DNA of 64,000 nt from Caenorhabditis elegans (lineage: Eukaryota; Nematoda; Chromadorea; Rhabditida; Rhabditidae). The stretch covers positions 2,232,001 to 2,296,000 of the forward strand of contig NC_003284.9 of the NCBI RefSeq assembly GCF_000002985.6, written 5' to 3'. The stretch's first letter is position 1; each line of letters opens with the position of its first letter. Positions 1 to 14,600 of the stretch are shown one piece after another. Below the pieces are notes generated by a model. It made no database searches. It saw only the letters and a list, made by a program, of their open reading frames with translations, and had not been told where the DNA came from. A program made the translations under genes and the position numbers.

Positions 1-642
1 GTCGGCGACTTGAAGGAGCAATGTCAAGTGTTTCTCTTCGACACCCTTTTCTTTGAAGTTTGGAGACACCGTTCCGATTAGGTTGCTAAAGCTTTTCGAG
101 TACTTTTTTCTTGGAGGAAGTAGGTTTTCACACACTTAAAACATCCGGTTATGACCTTCTTGCTCGCGACCATTTGAGGTGACAGAAGGATGAGTGAAAA
201 TGGAATTTAGATAAAAATCTGACTCTGACATTAACCAATGAATAATCGTTTCAAACAACAGGTGGCATAATTATTCGAGTATACCATACTCACTTTCATT
301 TCAGGTTTTTGTTTTCTAGAATGATTTATGATAAAATGTGAACTAACAGGAAAACCTTTTACCGTAAAATTTACACTTATTTTTTTCGAAATTCAATATG
401 ACCTGAAAAACTTGTAGTCTTCATTTTCTCTCTATTCTCAATGCACAAGAGTTTTACCAACAAACATCATGTTTCTACAATGACGATAATCGGATAAAAT
501 GATCAAAATAAAACTACAGATCTAGTAAATGAGAAAAGGAAGACACTGATCTTTTTTCACCAGTAATTTGTAAAACATATATAGTTCTATACTTTCATGA
601 TTGGTACGTTTTACAAAAGACTCCAAAAATAATGACGATACC
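1..642. other. Noncoding stretch at left edge
   Basis: I see no supportable gene. A short open frame at the extreme left edge (about 26 codons, + strand) could be the tail of a gene outside the window, but no splice signal or family resemblance supports it. The rest is AT-rich intergenic sequence. Confidence 0.4.
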
Positions 643-1000
643 TTAAAAGTGGAGTACCGAGGTCTGAGACATTGCATTTAACTGCGGAACATTAAAACGT
701 TCTGAAAATTTACTTTTAAACAAGTCATAGTGGTTCAAATTTTTGAATTAAAAGCATGTTTTCAGCTAAACTTGAAGATGTCAGTTGTTTCGCAAGAAAG
801 GTTTTCTTTGGTTATCACAGTTTAATTCGCTAATTTTTTCATGTTGTTTCTCTGAATGATATGCTTTCTCAGTCGATGGGTGCACAATTATGGCACCATT
901 TTCTGCGTCCATTGACCAAAAATGTATTTAAATCAACGAATGAACGCGTAATAAACGGACAAGAAAAGCATTAAAGAGTGTTAATAAAATAAAAATAAGG
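643..1000. repeat. TTAA-ended palindromic repeat, GGAGTACCG family
   Basis: It begins TTAAAAGTGGAGTACCG, the same terminal sequence style as the element at 57067-57397. Around 925-955 it contains an internal block (ATTTAAATCAACGAATGAAC and on) that recurs in the element inside the crn-4 intron near 24710. The right end is unclear because another repeat abuts it near 1000. Confidence 0.5.
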
Positions 1001-1002
1001 TA

Positions 1003-1100
1003 CCGTCCGCTGCGACACTGACAAGTTGACAACACTTTATATGTTTCAAAATTCGGTAGTTTCGGGCCATTTTGAGTCTCAAAAAGCAAAGACTGAGATT
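1003..1100. repeat. Diverged fragment of the GGTGGTGTAGTCGA repeat family
   Basis: The block CCGCTGCGACACTGACAAGT, followed by a 'gggccattttgagtct' stretch, matches the internal core of the full elements at 19617-20012 and 55369-55777. No terminal repeats are seen, so this is a truncated copy. Confidence 0.5.
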
Positions 1101-1349
1101 TCGACCGTGTGCCTTAAATTTCATCATAGATATCTTGTTTTTCCGAAATATCAAAGTTTGCTTCTTTGTGCTCAATTCTTCATTCCAAATTTGGTCTGAT
1201 AGGAACAAGCTTGGCAGCTTTTGTGCGGGAGCCCATCTGTGTGAAATAGGTCTCAACTGAAGCAGCCTTTCAGAAAAAGCTACAGCTGATGTCTGAATCC
1301 GTTCCCGTCAATTAAATGCAAATAACTGCATTGTGAAAATTAAGTAATT

Positions 1350-1510
1350 TTGTTTAAGCTTCTCGAGGCTTTGCTGAAAATTGACTCGAGGAAGAAGTTG
1401 TCCAAATTCGAAACATTGCACATGGTTCAGAATCATCTTGAATGCCTGTCACAGATTTTGACACAAGACTCCAAAAGTGAGAATCTCAAAAGCAAATCCG
1501 AATTATCAGT
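1350..1510 (+). pseudogene. Orphan lin-32/Atonal-like bHLH fragment (helix 2 to C-terminus)
   Basis: The + strand frame from about 1350 encodes KIDSRKKLSKFETLHMVQ, then a stretch ending CLSQIL, then TQDSKSENLKSKS. This is the loop, helix 2 and short tail of an Atonal-family bHLH protein. It is closest to what I remember of C. elegans LIN-32, whose gene I recall as a neighbour of vha-15. The basic region and most of helix 1 are missing upstream, where the sequence turns into AT-rich noncoding DNA. The frame stays open to a stop at 1572-1574 but loses resemblance after about 1510. Without the basic region it could not bind DNA by itself, so I call it a partial duplication or pseudogene. The alternative is an exon of a diverged paralogue whose first exon lies left of the window. 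Confidence 0.7.
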
Positions 1511-1574
1511 TATGCGAAATTTTCCTCAAAATGGCCCTGCACCTTTCCAGTTTGAACTCTCTTTTTTTTCATAG

Positions 1575-2320
1575 GTTTCAATAACGATTATGACAAAAAA
1601 AAATCGAATACTTTCCAAACTTTAATACGATACCTCTTGAAATAAATTTTTGAACATATTAAATTGTGTTTTTGACAAAATGAAACAGCCCAAATATGTA
1701 AAACCTCAGACATCGCAAGCTTCCGTGATAAATCTATCAAAAAAGTTCAAAGTCCGCATGATTTGTTCATTTCATACATTTTCAGGACTAGGATCAACAT
1801 ATTGGATACTAGACGAAACAATCGTCAAAAATCAGAAAATTCGCTACAAGGATCTGTTGCGTCGGGTGTGGCGATTTTTTTCCTTTTTTCCAATTTTTAG
1901 TCAGTTTTCTTTTTTTCTACGTAACATTCCGATTTTCTTGCCCTTTTCATTTAATCAAATCGATAATTATTGGTTTGAAATTTTGCAATTCACAAAATGA
2001 CGGGAGTAGGTATTATTTTATTTTATTTTTTTACCGCCAAATTTTTAACTTATGGTGGAAAACCTCACCTGGTGCGTAAGGTCCCGCAGCGAAAATCTCT
2101 ATTTCTCTCTTCACAGCATGCTCTCTCATCGGCGTTTTTTTGAAGAGATGGTGGCAGCGATAAAGAGAGAGAGGGAGAGAGATAATTTTTCTCTGAGGAG
2201 ACGCAGGCATGTAGTTTCACACTAGAAATGCGTTTGAAAGACTGGCTGTTGCAGCCATGTTTTCTGTATTCCACTTTGCGTTTTTTCTCATTTTTAATAA
2301 TTCTCATTTAGTTTCTAATT
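1575..2320. other. Intergenic region upstream of the first full gene
   Basis: No gene is supported. The stretch 2090-2230 is less AT-rich, with CT/GA runs (a GA-rich tract near 2160-2180), typical of nematode upstream regions. A TTTTCAG acceptor at 2319-2325 lies directly before the next start codon and is a likely trans-splice site. Confidence 0.5.
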
Positions 2321-2325
2321 TTCAG

Positions 2326-4464
2326 ATGTCTGAAGAAGATCAGTCAGCTCCGAATGGTTCGGTACCTGGTCCGGACGCTAAGGCTTGGCCGGAACTTACA
2401 GTTGATCTCGAACCCGAAGTGTGGAGGTAAGTTATGTATTGCAAAAAGTGGGAAACTCAAGCATCATTACTTTTCAGAGCTTTGTATCGAGAAAAACACG
2501 GTGAAAAATTCCGATGCTCAGTTGAAATGCTCATGGAACTTGAGGAAATTTCGTGTGAAATTGAGGCTGAACAGAAGCTTCTCGATATCCTTGTGAAAGT
2601 CACATTCATTGAAAGAAATCTGTGTTTGAATGGCCCACAAAGTGGAGAGAGTCTCTTCGAAAGTCTGGAAGAAGCTAGATCGGATGAGCAGCCACTGTTA
2701 TTCGCAACGGTCTCCGATCTGACATCATTCTGTGACTCCATGAAGCCAATATTCCAAACCGAGAAAGTGAAGGGTACACTTATATATCGCAATTCTGGAT
2801 ATCAATCTCGTCGTTTCATTCAATACATTCGTAGAAGACTTGAGCCTGGTGACGTCATCGATTCCACAACTTTTCGTCAAGTGTAAGTCTATATGGTGTT
2901 TCGTTACATTAATTACATGTTTTTCAGAATTCAAGACTTTCAAGAGACAATTGGCGTTCCTGATTCTGTGAAGACTTTTGCAAAAAGTGAGCTGACGCTT
3001 GATTTTACCTCTCTGCGTACTGTGGCGCGCAATGTTCCAGGATTTCGATATGGTAATATAGATATGTAACACTGAATGAATAACCCTTAATTTTCAGATA
3101 AAAGCCTAGAACGCCTCGATTTGACACCAGAAGCTGAACATCATCTTCCACTCCATTTGCCAATTTTCACGGAAACTCTCGATTTCAACAACCCGCATAA
3201 ACACGACTATTCACGAGTATTCTCTTGTTATGTTAGAAACGATTGCACCCAATACCCAAATCGATTGAAGGTATGATTTCTTATCTATCTCTATGAAAAT
3301 AAATATAATTTTTCAGGGAACTGTCGTTTCTGAGACTGGGCTTGGAATCGGTTTTATGTGCTTCCAGGACAACATGAAAGACTATCTTGGCAATGATTTG
3401 GAAAAGGGCACATTCAATGCAGCCAATTACAGATTTGTAAGTATTCCATCGTTGTAAGGGATTTTGTAAAATTTACTCATAAATGAGCAAAAATGAGAGA
3501 ATTTCATGATTTTAAATGTCCCGTCAAAGTTTAGGCAAATTGCTACATTTTTGAGAACTATGATCTTTTGAGGAAATCTAAAGCAATGTCACATGTAATG
3601 GCCCGTAGAATGTTTGAACACAATTAATTGAAGAAAAATTACAGTATAAAAATCTTTTTTAAAAAAGTTTTTTGGTCGAGTTCCAACATTATGAGTAACA
3701 AAAACTTAGTAGTAGTTGTCACTTTGACAGAAAATAAAACATTTCCAAACGTTTGTGAAAAGTTTTACTATGGTAACTGGTCACTTTGGCACTATGGGAG
3801 TAGTTTAAAACATTTTCCAAGCTGGCGCTACTCCACTAGGTAGATCAGCTTCAGATTTTCAGATTGTATAACTCATTCTGAATTGCCCGAAAATGATTCA
3901 AGGTGGCCTATCATTTACGGAATTTTGTCTGGAAATGTAGTACTTGGTCGTATTAGTAAGAATATAAAAAGAAACCACAAAACAGTTCCAGGAAATACAA
4001 AAAAAGCTGACCGAAAAACACGGAGCCTATTTTCAGATCTTCATTACGGCTAGCCACTTTTTCATAGTTTTCTACACTTTTTAAAATTCTGCAATTAATT
4101 AAAAAGTTAGAATTCATACTCAAACCTGTCAAAAATATTTCATTCTTAAACCATAATTTGTACAAAAAAAGCTTTAGATCTTCAAAAAAAAAATTATTAA
4201 AATTTTCAGCTCGCCGTAGAAGGAAACATTAATCCCAGCAACCTTTACGAACAATTTGAAGTGTTCAAAGTGGTGAACATTCCCTTCGGCTTTGACAACA
4301 ATCTTGTCACAACCGGGAACGAAACGATCTACCGGGTGCATTTCAATTTGGAAAAAGTGGACTCAACGTTTGAAAATGTGCAAACCGAACTTGAAGCTAC
4401 TCTAAGACGTGTAGTTCACCGAACTCGGAAATCGAAAGAAGACAACGATAATTCGGATGATTAA
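2326..4464 (+). CDS. Unrecognised 392-aa protein, six exons
   Basis: Exons: 2326-2426, 2478-2882, 2928-3052, 3098-3270, 3317-3436, 4210-4464. All introns are GT-AG, the frame is continuous, and the total is 393 codons with stop. The start is the ATG immediately after a TTTTCAG acceptor, the usual arrangement for a spliced-leader site. I recognise no family. The N-terminus is short and acidic/polar. The middle has a basic patch (YQSRRFIQYIRRRLEPGD, about residues 150-170). The C-terminus ends in an acidic tail (RKSKEDNDNSDD). There is no signal peptide or membrane segment, which suggests a soluble intracellular protein. Intron 5 (773 bp) carries a palindromic repeat. A polyadenylation hexamer follows at 4685. 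It may be nematode-specific; the exon structure is secure, the function is not known. Confidence 0.85.
3620..3842. repeat. Partial GGAGTAGCG/CGCTACTCC palindromic repeat in intron 5
   Basis: The right end GGCGCTACTCCACTAGG (near 3823-3840) matches the ends of the full element at 17510-17967. Nearby 'ggcactatgggagtagttt' is the same family's subterminal sequence. The left end has decayed. It lies wholly inside an intron. Confidence 0.5.
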
Positions 4465-4684
4465 TGAGCCCGCGGACCAGAAGTTTTTCATCAATTACTC
4501 TAATTTTTAACGTGCATAATGTTTTTCATGATCTCCCATGTTGAATGAATTTATTTTTGAAAAAGCTCACTTGCTCCTCAATCACAAACCATATCTTATT
4601 CTTCATCCCAACCCCATTGTTTTCCATTGTTTTATCAATTTTTCACACATATCTTCATTTATTTATTACGTTTTTTTTTTCCAA

Positions 4685-4690
4685 AATAAA
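4685..4690 (+). other. Polyadenylation signal AATAAA
   Basis: An AATAAA hexamer 221 nt after the stop codon of the 2326-4464 gene. It is the first canonical signal downstream in the sense direction. Confidence 0.6.
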
Positions 4691-5910
4691 CTGAGAATCG
4701 CTGTTGAATCGAAATCAATTTTATTTTGAAGCATTTAAATTAGAACTCCTCATGTATTTTCCGTTATCACGGATGATTTGATTGTCGAGAATTTTACGTG
4801 GAAAATGTAGCGAGGAGCGGAACTTTTATTTGGAAACTTTATAAAATATAGTGCTCGAAAGCGTTAAAACTTTTATTCAAACGTCTATGGGCCTAAAGAT
4901 TATTCTGGAAAGCATTATGTTAAGCCAACAAATATACAAATGAAGTAACTTGTTTTTAGATCGTTGCGAGACCTACACTGATATCTCAAAATTACATTAC
5001 CAATTTGAAATTTAAAAAAGAATTTTCAAAGCACGTAAAATATGGTATAGTTCAAAAACTTTTTTTGAGAAATTGGGGTCTCCCTTGATAAATATAGAAA
5101 AAAACTGATTCACTATAAATCATGACATATGTGAATTTTTTTAGAAAATAAATTTGAAAGTCACTGACGTTTCAGGGTTATAGAGCTCAGTCAGTTCTAG
5201 AAAACCGTACACATTTATTCTCAGAACATTTAAAATTTTGTTATACCGTTGCCAACAATATTTTCTTGATCTTTGCTCTCAGTGTTTTGTAAATCTAAGC
5301 AGTTTGACTTTAACAAGCGTGACCAATTAATTTACAATTCGAGATTATTATTAGAAATTTCACGCCAGATCAGAAAATATTTTTTAAAAAAACCTTAAAA
5401 TTTAAAAATAGCATATCATAGAATACATGGAATTTTGATGAGCACAAAATTAATATGTGAAAAAAACTTTCGAATTTGATTGAAATTTGGAAAAATTGAT
5501 AATTTTTTACTCAATCCATTTCCCGTGTTTCATCTCCCCGAAAAATATCCTATGCCATTTTTCTCTCCCCTCACCTTTGCCTATCGATTTTGACAGAGGG
5601 ACGGCTAGTAGAGACGCAGATAGAAAAGGAAACACTGCTCTCTTCTCTCTCGCCGTACGACGGGTCTCGCAACGATCACCGACCAGCCAGTGATTGTTGT
5701 TCTCTAACCATGATCTCTTGCATTTATTCCACTACTTTTCGAGTGTTTTTGAAGTTCTGGAATGCAAGTTTTTAGTTTTCGTCGTCGGAGTCAATAGATA
5801 AACACAATTTGAAACTTATATCGTCGTTTAAATTGTTTTTACTCCTATTTGAACATTTTTTCTTGGCAATTTTTTGAAATTGGTTAAAAAAATCATTTAA
5901 AAAATTTCAG
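4691..5910. promoter_or_regulatory. Intergenic region and vha-15 upstream sequence
   Basis: No gene is seen. Between about 5545 and 5700 the base composition rises in C and G, with CT-rich runs and 'gagacgcagata'- and 'cgacgggtctcgcaac'-like stretches typical of worm promoter regions. The region ends in the acceptor AAATTTCAG at 5902-5910, two bases before the vha-15 start, probably the trans-splice site. Confidence 0.5.
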
Positions 5911-5912
5911 CA

Positions 5913-7903
5913 ATGGCGGAAGTTCCTCATCACAATATCCCTGCGGTCGACATGCTCAACGCAACGTCTCGTCTTCAGCTCGAGGCTCAGGAGGTAAGAA
6001 AAACGTTATTTTCACTTTGATTTTCCGATAATTTGTGCATTTTCAGCTCCGTAACAATAAGCCAAACTGGGGATCTTACTTCCGCTCTCAAATGATTCAA
6101 GAAGACGACTACAACTTCATCACCAGCTTTGAAAACGCCAAGGTGAGATTATTTAATTTAACAACTGTGAAAATTGAATATATGTATAAATTTTAGTCGA
6201 AAGAAGAGCGTGACCAGGTTCTTGCCGCTAACAATGCCAATGGACAGGCAGCTAAGACCATGGCAAACCTCATCACTCAAGTCGCCAAGGATCAGAATGT
6301 ACGATATGTGCTTACTCTTTTCGACGACATGCTTCAGGTAAGAATTTACAAAGGTCTTGTGATCAATAATAGAAAAAATATTCAGGAAGACAAATCCCGC
6401 GTGGAACTTTTCCACTCTGCGGCTGCTCGTCAGAAGCGCACCGTCTGGTCGCAATATCTTGGAATCTTGCAACGACAAGATAATTTCATAGTCAACCAGG
6501 TATTTTTTGGGTGTTAAATGTTTTGGCATTAATTATGTCGTAATCCAGATGAGCTCCATCATTGCCAAGCTTGCCTGCTTTGGAACAACTCGCATGGAGG
6601 GACAAGATCTTCAGTACTACTTCTCCTTCCTCAAGGAGCAGCTTAAAAACTCTACGGTAAGAGTTTAAGTTTGCAATTTTAATTTTATGAATTTAAAGTT
6701 TCAGACCAACGACTACATGAACACCACTGCTCGTTGCCTTCAGATGATGCTCCGTCACGATGAATACAGACATGAATTCGTTGATTCTGACGGAGTTCAG
6801 ACTCTTGTCACTGCTCTCAATGGAAAGACCAACTTCCAGTTGCAATATCAACTTATCTTTGCTGTTTGGTGCCTCACTTTCAACGCCGACATTGCCAGAA
6901 AAGCTCCATCTCTTGGACTTATTCAAGCTCTCGGAGATATTCTTTCCGAGTCCACGAAGGAAAAGGTCATCAGAATCATTCTCGCTTCTTTCGTGAACAT
7001 TTTGAGCAAGGTTGATGAGCGTGAAGTCAAGAGGGAGGCTGCTCTCCAGATGGTTCAATGCAAAACTTTGAAGACTTTGGAGCTGATGGATGCTAAGAAA
7101 TACGACGACCCAGATCTTGAGGATGATGTCAAGTTCCTCACTGAAGAGCTGACCCTTTCAGTGCACGACTTGAGCTCCTACGATGAGTATTACAGCGAGG
7201 TAAATCTAAATCTCACCAAGACTTGCGGATTTGGGAGTCAGGTTCACTGCCTGGTGGTGCTCCCACTGGGCTATAATTTGAGCCACGTCCTAGCCAGGAA
7301 CCGTGGCCGATAATCCAGTCGTGGATTACTGCACTTCTCAATAGAAGCTGGCCGAACCTAGGGGGTGAGGCCGGACTTGAACTCGTGACCTCCAGATTGC
7401 TAGCGACCACCACTACCGACTTAGCTATCCTGACCCCGGATAATAGTTTTCATTAAATTGCAGGTTCGTTCCGGACGTCTTCAATGGTCTCCAGTGCACA
7501 AGTCAGAGAAGTTCTGGCGTGAAAACGCTTCCAAGTTCAATGACAAGCAATTCGAAGTTGTCAAGATCCTTATCAAGCTTCTTGAATCTAGTCATGACCC
7601 ACTGATCCTTTGTGTTGCTTCTCATGATATCGGAGAGTATGTTCGTCATTACCCGAGAGGAAAGACGTAAGTGTAAATGAGAATACTGCAATTTTCAAAT
7701 CAGAGTCTTCAAAATTCAATGTTTCCAGCGTCGTCGAGCAGTATCAAGGTAAGGCAGCTGTTATGCGTCTCCTGACTGCCGAGGATCCAAATGTTCGCTA
7801 CCATGCTCTTCTTGCTGTTCAGAAGCTTATGGTCCACAACTGGGAATATCTTGGCAAGCAATTGGACAGTGACGTTCAAACAGATACTGTCGCCGTGAAG
7901 TAA
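5913..7903 (+). CDS. vha-15: V-type proton ATPase subunit H
   Basis: Exons: 5913-5993, 6047-6142, 6197-6337, 6386-6499, 6549-6656, 6705-7199, 7464-7666, 7729-7903; 470 residues, the usual size for subunit H (Vma13p). This subunit of the cytosolic V1 sector stabilises the complex and couples or silences ATP hydrolysis when V1 leaves V0. The protein is all helical repeats, as expected of the HEAT/ARM-like fold. Strong family blocks include [16 protein letters not shown] (N-domain), [20 protein letters not shown] and [21 protein letters not shown] (C-domain, before the end). No membrane segment is present. The start ATG follows a TTTCAG acceptor. Codons such as CTC, AAG and GGA are frequent, as in highly expressed worm genes. 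Intron 6 (7200-7463) contains a tRNA-derived repeat. C. elegans vha-15 is, from memory, T14F9.1 on X. Confidence 0.96.
7205..7440 (-). mobile_element. tRNA-derived SINE-like element in vha-15 intron 6
   Basis: On the minus strand, positions 7437 down to about 7365 read like a tRNA. The start is GGGGTCA. A perfect A-box TAGCTAAGTCGG lies at complement 7416-7427 and a B-box-like GAGTTCAAGTCC at complement 7373-7384, with tRNA-like spacing. The 3' half then reads GGCCTCACCCC. The two ends can form an acceptor stem with one mismatch in seven, but the T stem pairs poorly, so this is not a functional tRNA. About 150 bp of unrelated body follows to roughly 7210. A pol III promoter head fused to a non-tRNA body is the plan of a SINE. 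Target-site duplications are not obvious. Confidence 0.65.
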
Positions 7904-8394
7904 ATCCCTTTCTGAAAATGCAATCTTATCTATCATTCACATTCCACTTGACCCCCAAACTAACTTTTGTTGTATAAAAATACAGTGTATTATTCTTTTG
8001 AAACTTCACTTCGTATTGTCGTTGTCACTGTACTATGCTTGTACACCACATTCCCATTTCTCTCTCTCTACCCGATACCGAACATCGTCTCACTGTACTT
8101 TTTTAGTGATAAATTTCATCTAGTTTTTACCTTCTACCTACATGTTCATCTAGTTACTTATTTTTCTGCGATATACTATTTTTTGTTTTAGTGATGATAC
8201 CTGTTCAATTTTTCACTTATTTGCAACGCCCAATAAGTAAAGTTTTTGAATTTTTTTTCTTGAAAGTATAATTATGTATTTGCCGATTGGAAAATCGTCG
8301 CGATCATTCTAAGATCTTGTCAATTTCAGGACAATACGAAAAGAAACATCAACTTGCCGTTTTTGTTTTGAAGAGCAAAAAATTGTTCAACTGA

Positions 8395-8400
8395 AATAAA
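8395..8400 (+). other. Polyadenylation signal AATAAA after vha-15
   Basis: A canonical hexamer 492 nt beyond the vha-15 stop. The nearer AATAAG at about 8231 may be used instead, so the true cleavage site is uncertain. Confidence 0.45.
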
Positions 8401-9840
8401 AGTTCTCTTCTGTTAAGATATGAAGTTTTGTAAAATTGAAAACGATTAACTTTATTCTATATATTTACTTTAGTCCAGAAAGTGAAAAAAATGCTGATTG
8501 TGAAATTACAGCGGAAGTTTTGGAATAGATCAAAAATAATTTGTCACCTCACTAGTTTTGCATGCAGAAAAGTTACAACTTTTGCAATTGTATCTGCTTG
8601 TGATTTTTAAGTGACTCACTTCAATCAATATTTAGAGATTTGTTGAAACCTATATTTGAATTATCAAAAAAATATGATTGATTGTGAATTCGTTTTTTGT
8701 GCTCCGCTGCGCCCAACTGGTATGGGACTCCCCCTCCATTTGAGCAGTTTAGGGCATTTCCGATTTTTTTCATAGAAAACTAGTTTTGGAATCGGGTTCA
8801 GCATACTAAAAAACCTATGAGTCTATAATTTTTTCCTGATATCTCAAAACTTGAGAACAAAAGAGCAAAAAGTTGAAAAATCGACCGCCCAACTGCTACG
8901 GGAACCCCTGAGATTTTCGATAATTTTGACAAAAAATCTCATTTTTTCGAAAGAAACCAAATTTTTCAGTTTCAAAGTTTCATTTCATTGTGTAATTCGG
9001 TGGTGTACTTTTCATTTTTCATATCATGGAAATAACTGAAAACATGCAAAAGCACGATTTTTAATATTTTATGATCTTTAAGCCCGACTTGAAGCAACTG
9101 AGTTGGCTGACAATTTCAACAACTGTGAGCCATTATAGAGCCAATATTGTACATAGCGTTTACCAAGCTTTTTGGTGCCACTCGACTTTTAAGCTCATAT
9201 CTGAGCAGCCGATAGAGCTTTCTTTACAAAAATTTACAGACTTATGCTGAAAAATATACAAATCATGAACCATTAACAATAGCTTTATCAATCTTCAAAT
9301 AAGTTTGGTCTTATTTATTTCATATACGCAATGAAACTAAGTTTATTTATGTTTTCGAATTTTCGATTTTCGATTTTCGAAATATATTTTCAGAAATCCC
9401 AGAAATATTTCAGGAATTCGAATTGATCACATATCAGATACCAAGGACCGTCAAATTATTTTTGTTCAAAACCCGCCGCTAACTCTCGGAACATAGATCC
9501 GATAATTGCGTTATGAACTCGAAATTCGACACATTTGTTTAAGCAACGTAACTTGTATGATTTAAATTGAAAAAAATAAATAATTCTAGATTTATTTTTA
9601 GACGCGCCTAGAAAATGAGGTCGTAAGGTTTTATCGAATCACTTGATATATCTTAAAATAACAGACTTATCTCTCTATAAAGTGCTCACAAAGTTCTGAC
9701 GTTTTTCCCACAATCTTTTCCTTTGCGAATCCACGTTAATTTTTAAAGCTTTTTACTTTTCAGTGTTCAGAAGATTGAGGTTTTTGTGCTCTGAAAAGTT
9801 CAACCCAACCCCAAAAACATCATTTTTAATCTGGTACAAC
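8401..9840. repeat. Intergenic region holding a dispersed repeat (8690-8960)
   Basis: Between 8690 and 8960 the order of blocks (CCCAACTGNTANGGGANNCCCC, then 'gcatttccgatttttttcata', then 'ggaatcgggttcagcatac', then GTTGAAAAATCGAC) recurs at 51615-51780. These are two copies of one dispersed element. The rest, 8961-9840, is AT-rich with no supportable gene and has a short ATTTTCGATTTTCGA run near 9358. Confidence 0.5.
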
Positions 9841-9875
9841 ATATAACAGTTTATGTCAAAAAATCAACAATTTTC

Positions 9876-11246
<1,371 letters not shown>

Positions 11247-11601
11247 TTATTGTAAAAAAACGGTATTAAATGTGAAAAATTGAACAAAAAAGGTCCAAAT
11301 CAGTAAGATATGCAACAAAAAAGGTAATGTAAAAAGAAATTGGAATGTGTTCAAATGAAAACGTTTTTGGAGCAACAGAAAAAAAGTAAAGAACAACCGG
11401 TCATTCAAAATCACCTAAGACAGAAATTTGGAAATGAGGAGAACAGATAAGGAATAGGTTGACAAGAATTTTGAGAATCACAATTGAAAGTTAACCGTTT
11501 CAGAACAGAGATCTATTGATGGAAGCAATTGAAAGAAGGCCGGAAACAAATTTTTGAGTAAAATGAAAAGGAAAGCAACTAGAAGTATATGATAACAACG
11601 A

Positions 11602-14600
11602 TTAAACTTCATCCACTGGATTTTCATGATTCTCGTTTCCAAGAAGGACGACAGCTCTGCAAACGGAGATTATGATTGACTTTTGAAACGGAGAGGGGAA
11701 AAACTCACTGATGACATCGCTTTCCGTGAACTGAGACTCGAACGGTTGGAGAGTCGCCAGTGGAAGTTGGCGATAAGCTTGATCTACATCCAAATAGTCG
11801 GAGAAATGCGTGACGGTATTCAGAAGAACACAGAGCATAAAGGTAGAAGTTGTAGAGATAACTGAAAACGGGGAAAGGTTTGGAACCATCTTTCAGCTTT
11901 GAGCTCTTTTCATAAACTACTGAATTTTACAAGAAGTGAAAAAAACCATAGCATGTATTGAATTTTTTGGAGAGTTGAAAAAAGAAAAAAAGCAATTAAT
12001 TTTTTGTTTTAGGTAGCCATACCTTGTGACTTGAAGAAGATTTGCAATGGCACGGAATATCTGCCAAAACAATGAACCACTAACTCGTCTGAAATGCTGT
12101 CCAGTTCAAAGAATTCTCAAAATATTAAGACTTACCGAACGAAGAAAGATATAACGGAGGCAGGAATATTGCAGATGATAAAAGTAGCAGATGTAACGAA
12201 CAGAAGAACTGATATACGACTGCGATCATCGCGCGGCGACCGAAGTTGGCGTTGAGCTAATGTTTCAGTCCGACTGTTTTGTGATGGCTGTCTCCAGAAC
12301 CAATTACGTTTGTCAATTTTCCGCAGGCCACGAACGACGCACATGTTCAGGATAACAAGAAGTAGAACGGGACCCCAGCGGCAGATACACTGAAAATTAA
12401 ACATAAAAACTACTTTTAAAAAAATTCGATTCACTTACTTCTCTTACTATAAGATAGAATTTAAAAACTTGAAGTGCCTCCACATCTTCGTTGCGAACAA
12501 TTGTGTAGATCGTTCTGGAAGTTGAAATTACACAAAAAAATCTGTCTAGAATATTAACTCACTTGTTGGTGAGAGCATCCGTCACGACACCAAGCTTCTT
12601 TTGGAAGACTGATGGAAAATATATCATCAGTGCAATAAAGTAGATCATGACAATGATGAGCATGGTACGACGACGGGATGGCTTTGTCTCATTGTTTTGA
12701 AAAAATTTAATTGGATGACAAACTGACACATATCTGTCCACTGTCATGGCAACAATATTCAACGCACTGAAATAGTTGATTTAATTAATGACCAATGTTT
12801 TGTTATAGACAATGCTGTCCAAAAAAAGTTATCCCTTTTACTTTTTAAAAATAAATTTGCTAATTTTTCCAATAAATATAACTCCGAGACTAGAACTGCT
12901 ATCGAAAAAAATTCTACCAACAAGATATGGCCCATTCCCTAAAATTATGGCAAAAACATCTCACGTATCCATTATTTTTTTAAAACGACTGTAACTCAAA
13001 ACGCAAGGGCAGTTTGTGAAAAAAAATAATTTTCATATAATTTTTCACTGTTAACAGTTATCTTTTTTTTTAATCCATATGGAAAGAAGATATTAGAATT
13101 CAAAGTGGAGAGGTTATTCGAGCGCATTTCTCATCGAAAAGGGACTCACGAGATGTCGGCCGCTTTATTTTTTTCCATGATTTTTATGAATAATAGAAAC
13201 ATATAATATGAAAACAATTAGACAAAGTCATGGGATATATATTTTTTCAGTTGAACATTTTTTGAAAACAATTCTAGTTTTGGAGCTATACTTATTTGAA
13301 CTATTAGAAAAATTATCAAAACACCAAAATGGGATATCTTTTTGACCACGTACATACCTTGCAGAAATAAGTGCGTTTATGAGCGGAAGCTCCAAATGAG
13401 CATGATAAAACATCCCGAGCTCCCATGATGGGTCTATCAGCTTGGCATGTCGGAAAAGAAATGGGATAAATGCGACAATACTTAAAATATCGGCAATAGC
13501 CGAAGCTTTCAAGTAGAGGAATATGCTAGTTCGAATGTGAAGAAGTGTGCACACATTCAGACATTGATTTATCATTCCTGAAATATAAAAACGTATACTC
13601 TCAGAATGTATAAATGAAAATACCTATGGATAAAACGATTGGCATAACGATGACATGGGCGACATAATCGACATGATTCATTTCGGGAGAATCATCCAAT
13701 GAAGTGGTGCGGAAGCTGAAATATAAAACAAATACAACTTTTTTAAAAAAGGTTTTTGATTATTGGATATTCATTAGGAATTCTCATTTCTGAGGATAGA
13801 AGTTTGATGATTCTCAATTTGGATATTGAACGTGGGAAACCCCCCGGCAAATGAAAGTTAGCATAAAATATGATTAAACTTAATCTCAAAGTTTCGTAAT
13901 GGCCTATAGAACTTTGTTACTTGCAATAGCATCGAAACTACAAAAACATTTTTAGCACCAGACACTATTAAAAAGTTCAGACCTAAACGGTTTACTCCCA
14001 AAATGCAGGAAATCCGTTACACCTCCATGCCACTAGACATTAAATTCTGTTTGAAAAACCAGATCCGTCAAAATCGAGATGTTTTCAAAAATATCAAATC
14101 GAGAATGGTCGAACAGTTGTGAAAAATCTTTTTTTTCTCTAAAAAATGGGAATAACTCAGTTTTTGCCACTTTTTTGGAAGTCATCGCTCAAAAAAATGT
14201 TATCTCCCAAGTTTAAAAAAACTGCCACTTTTTGACAGTTAGAAAAAAAGTAAAAATTTTTTTTTGAAAGGTTTACTAAGATACTCAGTCGTTTTGGAAC
14301 CATATGAGTGGTTGCTCACAATAACCCCCAAACATTAATAGTATTAGAATATTATTAGTAATAGTATTAGAATATATAGCCGAATATTCGAATCTCGGTA
14401 GTTTCAAAAGTATAGCATATTTTGGAAAATATATTATTGATTTAACCTATATGTTTTAAAAATTCTCAAAGAAAAAATTGTTTTAATTGGACTCTCTCAA
14501 AAATGCCTAAGTACGTAAAAAAAATCTGATTTTTTTCTTTAAATGTGATTTTATAAAAAAATTTGAAATGTTTCGCCTTCTTAAGTAAAAAGTGATTTTT

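Follow-up and report, generated by a model that had tools for sequence, protein, structure and literature searches.

An inverted copy of the last exon of lin-32 resides in the intergenic region upstream of its own parent gene on the X chromosome of Caenorhabditis elegans. The copy lies within the window analysed here, a stretch of 64,000 nucleotides (NC_003284.9, positions 2,232,001 to 2,296,000 of the forward strand), and it very probably represents an unprocessed partial duplicate, a pseudogene fragment in the course of neutral decay. Judging from its sequence, the fragment most likely has neither a protein product nor a role of its own. The fragment and the landmarks to its right are:

1353..1508, plus strand: inverted copy of lin-32 exon 3, very probably a pseudogene fragment (BLASTN and ungapped alignment)
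1359..1505, plus strand: exon 3 equivalent proper, 49 codons (ungapped, 20 differences in 147 bases)
2326..4464, plus strand: multi-exon gene at the right limit of the intergenic stretch, outside the feature under study (exons read by eye)
5913..7903, plus strand: V-ATPase subunit H gene, a landmark outside the feature (Pfam; outer limits by eye)

The fragment and its parent gene

The open frame and its translation (FKLLEALLKIDSRKKLSKFETLHMVQNHLECLSQILTQDSKSENLKSKSELS) are present at window positions 1353-1508 on the plus strand, as the preliminary description had given them. A BLASTN search of the genome (100,286,401 bases in 7 contigs, of which X, contig C6, comprises 17,718,942 bases) with the DNA of the fragment identified two places only, namely the fragment itself and lin-32 exon 3, the latter on the minus strand at X:2229205-2229360 with 88% identity over 156 bp (E 1.6e-47). 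When 1 kb around lin-32 exon 3 was in turn used as the query, that exon and the fragment were again the only places returned. In an ungapped alignment, 135 of the 156 bases are identical, and at the protein level the fragment matches the exon 3 place with 72% identity (E 1.1e-15); this likeness is far beyond chance. As the DNA search yielded no more than these two places, the proposal of a local partial duplication of lin-32 near vha-15, made earlier from the window alone, is correct, and the comparison with the lin-32 gene to the left of the window, which had also been suggested, identifies the fragment as a copy of its exon 3.

The parent, the C. elegans homologue of Atonal (PMC5765345), has a coding span at X:2229208-2230085 on the minus strand, directly left of the window. 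It is a three-exon gene with coding exons at X:2230085-2229943, 2229877-2229739 and 2229354-2229208, which, when joined, encode a bHLH protein of 142 residues (Pfam HLH, 71.4 bits). That this gene is lin-32 is established by the three exons, by a published allele context and by residue A91: the context of a noncoding lin-32 allele, taken from a part of PMC5765345, occurs once in the parent stretch, eight bases off the printed coordinate, and the same part of that paper places A91V in the bHLH domain, in agreement with an alanine at residue 91 of the deduced LIN-32 (counted by eye).

Exon 3 of lin-32 is located about 4 kb left of the fragment and on the opposite strand. The fragment, which is inverted relative to lin-32, has its first base 3,268 bp upstream of the start codon of that gene. 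Its end is some 0.8 kb away from the apparent ATG of the neighbouring gene to the right (2326), and the V-ATPase subunit H gene has its apparent ATG 4.4 kb beyond the same end. The inversion had escaped the preliminary description because lin-32 itself is outside the window. For two exons of the gene at 2326-4464 (2479-2883 and 4207-4464), no Pfam match was obtained at E 0.1, and exon 6705-7199 of the gene further right matches PF03224, V-ATPase_H_N, with E 3.8e-49. We take the latter gene, at 5913-7903, to be vha-15, and the proposed vicinity to lin-32 holds, with the lin-32 exons directly to the left of the window and this V-ATPase subunit H gene beginning at window position 5913. An intron of this gene harbours an interspersed repeat at window positions 7205-7445. 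There were 294 candidate places for it in the genome, 40 of which were scored, and 39 of these are other copies with 89-91% identity, scattered across contigs C1-C6. On the minus strand, the repeat resembles a tRNA when judged by eye (A and B box), but ARAGORN did not identify any tRNA within window positions 1-12000.

Edges, flanks and origin of the copy

The fragment comprises the equivalents of the last 6 bases of intron 2, of exon 3, and of about 3 bases past the stop codon. The intron end reads TTTCAG in lin-32 and TTTAAG in the fragment, so that five of the six bases are kept and the splice acceptor CAG has become AAG. At the other end, the last codon of the exon 3 equivalent (1503-1505) is TTA in place of the stop codon TGA of lin-32; as a consequence, the frame continues for 23 codons, TTA included, into unrelated sequence. 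The loop, helix 2 and lysine-rich tail that had been recognised earlier are indeed there, but the described extent was too short, as the end of helix 1 is also kept (LREVLP in LIN-32, LLEALL in the fragment) and the whole of exon 3 is represented. The reported absence of the basic region was confirmed; none occurs in the fragment, and no matching exon was found nearby.

On both sides of the fragment, similarity in the ungapped comparison is at chance level, and a BLASTN comparison of the lin-32 gene with window positions 1-2400 for a longer duplication gave the fragment and otherwise only hits at chance level (next best E 0.059). One further stretch of the 5' flank may be related to lin-32:

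1331..1355, plus strand: possible remnant of lin-32 intron 2, weak (local alignment score 25)

These 25 bases resemble a place in intron 2 about 275 bp before exon 3. For four flank lengths, and uncorrected for that choice, P for the match ranges from 0.001 to 0.014 when the target is intron 2 and from 0.017 to 0.074 when the target is longer; once the complete 400-base flank is used, the match to intron 2 is not significant (P 0.11). The 3' flank yielded nothing in comparison to lin-32 (P 0.32-0.97 over four lengths, 0.67 in a separate test). If real, the resemblance would mean that the duplication was originally larger and that the copy later lost about 275 bp internally, a suggestive but unproven possibility.

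The edges and the orientation of the fragment are directly visible in the alignment. With regard to the copying itself, we infer that it was most likely a local DNA event, such as a template switch or fold-back repair in replication, by which at least about 160 bp of lin-32 would have been copied, in inverted orientation, into the gene's own upstream intergenic region. Afterwards, the copy would have decayed while lin-32 remained constrained. Partial duplicates of this kind are well known in C. elegans. According to PMC3449122, they account for 21%, perhaps 38%, of the 290 young pairs surveyed in C. elegans, nearly all of which are DNA-mediated; according to PMC2728529, newborn duplicates of C. 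elegans share a chromosome in about 90% of cases, and newborn duplicates, by the context of the passage those of C. elegans, are often adjacent and inverted. The fragment resembles the surveyed partial duplicates (Katju and Lynch; PMC3449122, PMC2728529) in being a DNA-level copy of a single gene, on the same chromosome, nearby and inverted; unlike those, with dS under 0.1, it consists of a single exon without a gene model and has a dS near 0.13-0.20. No description of the fragment was found among the lin-32 papers listed, as judged by title and start of the abstract, and a literature query combining lin-32, upstream and inverted repeat produced no paper.

Within 282 kb of X, all five local pairs that passed our filter (at least 80 bp, less than 10 kb apart, low copy) are inverted, the lin-32/fragment pair included; 38 local pairs were present in all, and 33 had been dropped for copy number or length. 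In the same region, but outside the window, there are two further low-copy inverted pairs with less than 1 kb between the arms, X:2462301-2463812 and X:2486039-2487469, which align over 401 at 96% and 545 at 93% identity, respectively.

One feature that fits a local DNA event poorly is the tightness of the edges, since boundaries so close to those of an exon are a rare outcome of a DNA event that is blind to exons. An RNA-mediated origin, in which a cut piece of exon 3 mRNA was pasted in, would account for edges that lie no more than 6 bp from the acceptor and some 3 bp from the stop codon, and it would also be in line with the lack of any clear intron or 3'UTR homology by BLAST. However, no poly(A) follows position 1508, exon 2 is not joined to exon 3, five of the six intron-end bases are retained and a further weak match to intron 2 exists. 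In addition, few of the young duplicates in C. elegans are retrocopies (PMC3449122). We consider such a retrocopy unlikely.

Coding capacity and constraint

The 20 differences to lin-32 exon 3 along the 147 bp of ungapped alignment consist of 12 transitions and 8 transversions (K2P 0.15) and are distributed 5/8/7 over the three codon positions, with residue changes at 13 of 48 codons. By simulation (three transition shares, 50,000 trials each), 19 random substitutions on 48 sense codons are expected to change 12.9-13.8 residues (sd 1.7-1.8), the probability of 13 or fewer changes is 0.42-0.63, and the 48-codon frame stays free of stops in 36-44% of the trials. Estimates of dN and dS are similar to each other, with 0.13 and 0.20 by NG86 and 0.16 and 0.13 by YN00. 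With respect to clustering, 9 differences fall within 27 bp (P 0.07), and the longest identical run is 31 (P 0.12). The differences show the pattern of unconstrained, neutral DNA. A run of about 50 open codons had been taken earlier as a hint of either a recent origin or constraint; of these, constraint is not supported, given the even spread over codon positions and a number of residue changes as expected at random, and constraint on the frame was rejected on codon positions, dN/dS and simulation. At such a divergence, some 50 codons without a stop are no evidence of constraint. Sequence that is unconstrained but little diverged often retains an open frame, and the present one persists because mutations have so far been too few to interrupt it.

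Comparison with other bHLH proteins points in the same direction. Exon 3 of lin-32 has an HLH score of 34.1 bits, and the fragment scores 17.5 bits (17.6 and 18.4 for longer stretches), which is below the Pfam HLH cut-off of 20.7 bits. Among 11 changed residues that could be compared with NeuroD1, Twist1 and TAL1 (solved bHLH structures, three of eight hits), lin-32 agrees at 6, 5 and 6 and the fragment at 1, 0 and 0, respectively. As it is lin-32, and not the fragment, that agrees with the solved chains, the changes have mostly occurred in the fragment. In helix 2, residues common to lin-32 and the three solved chains are altered in the fragment from A to V, from Y to H and from I to L.

A second observation that runs against the preferred reading is the lack of indels, as the ungapped alignment contains none beside its 20 differences. 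The four other filtered pairs have 8 gap openings and 61 mismatches, from which 2.6 indels would be expected in the fragment and zero has P 0.07, although this control is not like for like with an ungapped alignment. At 0.32 indels per substitution, a genome-wide ratio for wild-type lines given in the part of PMC8727991 used here, 6.4 indels would be expected and zero has P 0.002. The objection is weakened by the gapped BLAST alignment of lin-32 and the fragment, in which 17 mismatches occur beside 2 gap openings that compensate each other, about as in the other pairs. Thus, the lack of indels was not taken as constraint, because the gapped count is like that of the other pairs, because the published ratio is genome-wide while exons have fewer homopolymer runs (PMC8727991, same part), and because this piece was picked for its open frame.

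The fragment is enclosed in a stop-to-stop frame of 76 codons (1344-1574), and it might be asked whether it is in use as an exon, either of a small or novel plus-strand gene encoding a basic-less HLH peptide with a dominant-negative, Id-like effect, or of the gene at 2326, which would have recruited it. Apart from the 76 open codons, an AG still present at the acceptor place (TTTAAG) and a net length unchanged from lin-32 exon 3 would be consistent with such a use. Against it, the first in-frame methionine of the frame is located inside helix 2 with no ATG in frame ahead of it, the stop codon is lost, residues of helix 2 are altered as listed above, the HLH score is under the cut-off, the differences are neutral in pattern and no second lin-32-like exon was found nearby. 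Id proteins are HLH proteins without a basic region, and the fragment would likewise carry a loop and helix 2 without one; unlike Id proteins, it is devoid of most of helix 1 and of a start codon ahead and falls below the Pfam HLH cut-off. A used exon is therefore highly improbable.

A real gene whose basic region is spliced in from the left, a case already raised in the preliminary description, was looked for with whole LIN-32 and rejected. Of the 21 matches listed by the genome search, 3 are the lin-32 exons, one is the fragment and the other 17 are weaker and located elsewhere; none to exon 1 or 2 is listed between lin-32 and the fragment (X:2230086 to 2233352). Neither could the parent provide a basic region by ordinary splicing, since lin-32 is on the opposite strand.

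Taken as a pseudogene fragment, the sequence displays homology to part of one parent gene (88% over 156 bp), a frame without signs of purifying selection (5/8/7) and disabling changes or missing parts, namely a lost stop codon, a changed acceptor, no ATG ahead and no counterpart of exon 1 or 2 found in the vicinity. It is like lin-32 exon 3 in length and in 88% of its DNA and differs from lin-32 in having no start and no basic region, in the altered stop codon and acceptor and in 13 of 48 residues. The joined exons and poly(A) of a processed pseudogene are absent, as there is a single exon and no poly(A) after 1508. The fragment also does not qualify as an Atonal-family bHLH gene, since it lacks the basic region as well as most of helix 1, neither of which was found in the vicinity, and has an HLH score of 17.5 bits as compared to the cut-off of 20.7.

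Possible silencing of lin-32 and implications

An inverted copy might also feed silencing or gene conversion of the parent gene, which would be compatible with its being a pseudogene fragment. In this scenario, a minus-strand transcript through both arms would fold to double-stranded RNA and give rise to endo-siRNAs. The two arms have 12 exact 22-mers and 6 exact 26-mers in common, and the calculated pairing of exon 3 RNA with the fragment antisense amounts to -218 kcal/mol. In C. elegans, ERI-6/7-dependent siRNAs act on recent duplicates and pseudogenes, as described in a part of PMC3213143. On the other hand, the loop would be about 4 kb long, and lin-32 is not mentioned in the main text of PMC3213143. 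Any contribution of the copy to silencing or conversion is accordingly very doubtful, and there is only a slight chance that it is a working regulatory element, in which read-through double-stranded RNA would tune lin-32 via endogenous siRNAs. If true, a proneural gene would carry, encoded in cis, a device for its own silencing.

The copy has a practical side for work on lin-32, as reporters, rescue clones, probes and RNAi triggers with exon 3, or with an upstream region longer than 3.3 kb, contain the copy or cross-match to it through the 12 exact 22-mers. Beyond that, the fragment provides a clean case of a small local inverted duplication in C. elegans.
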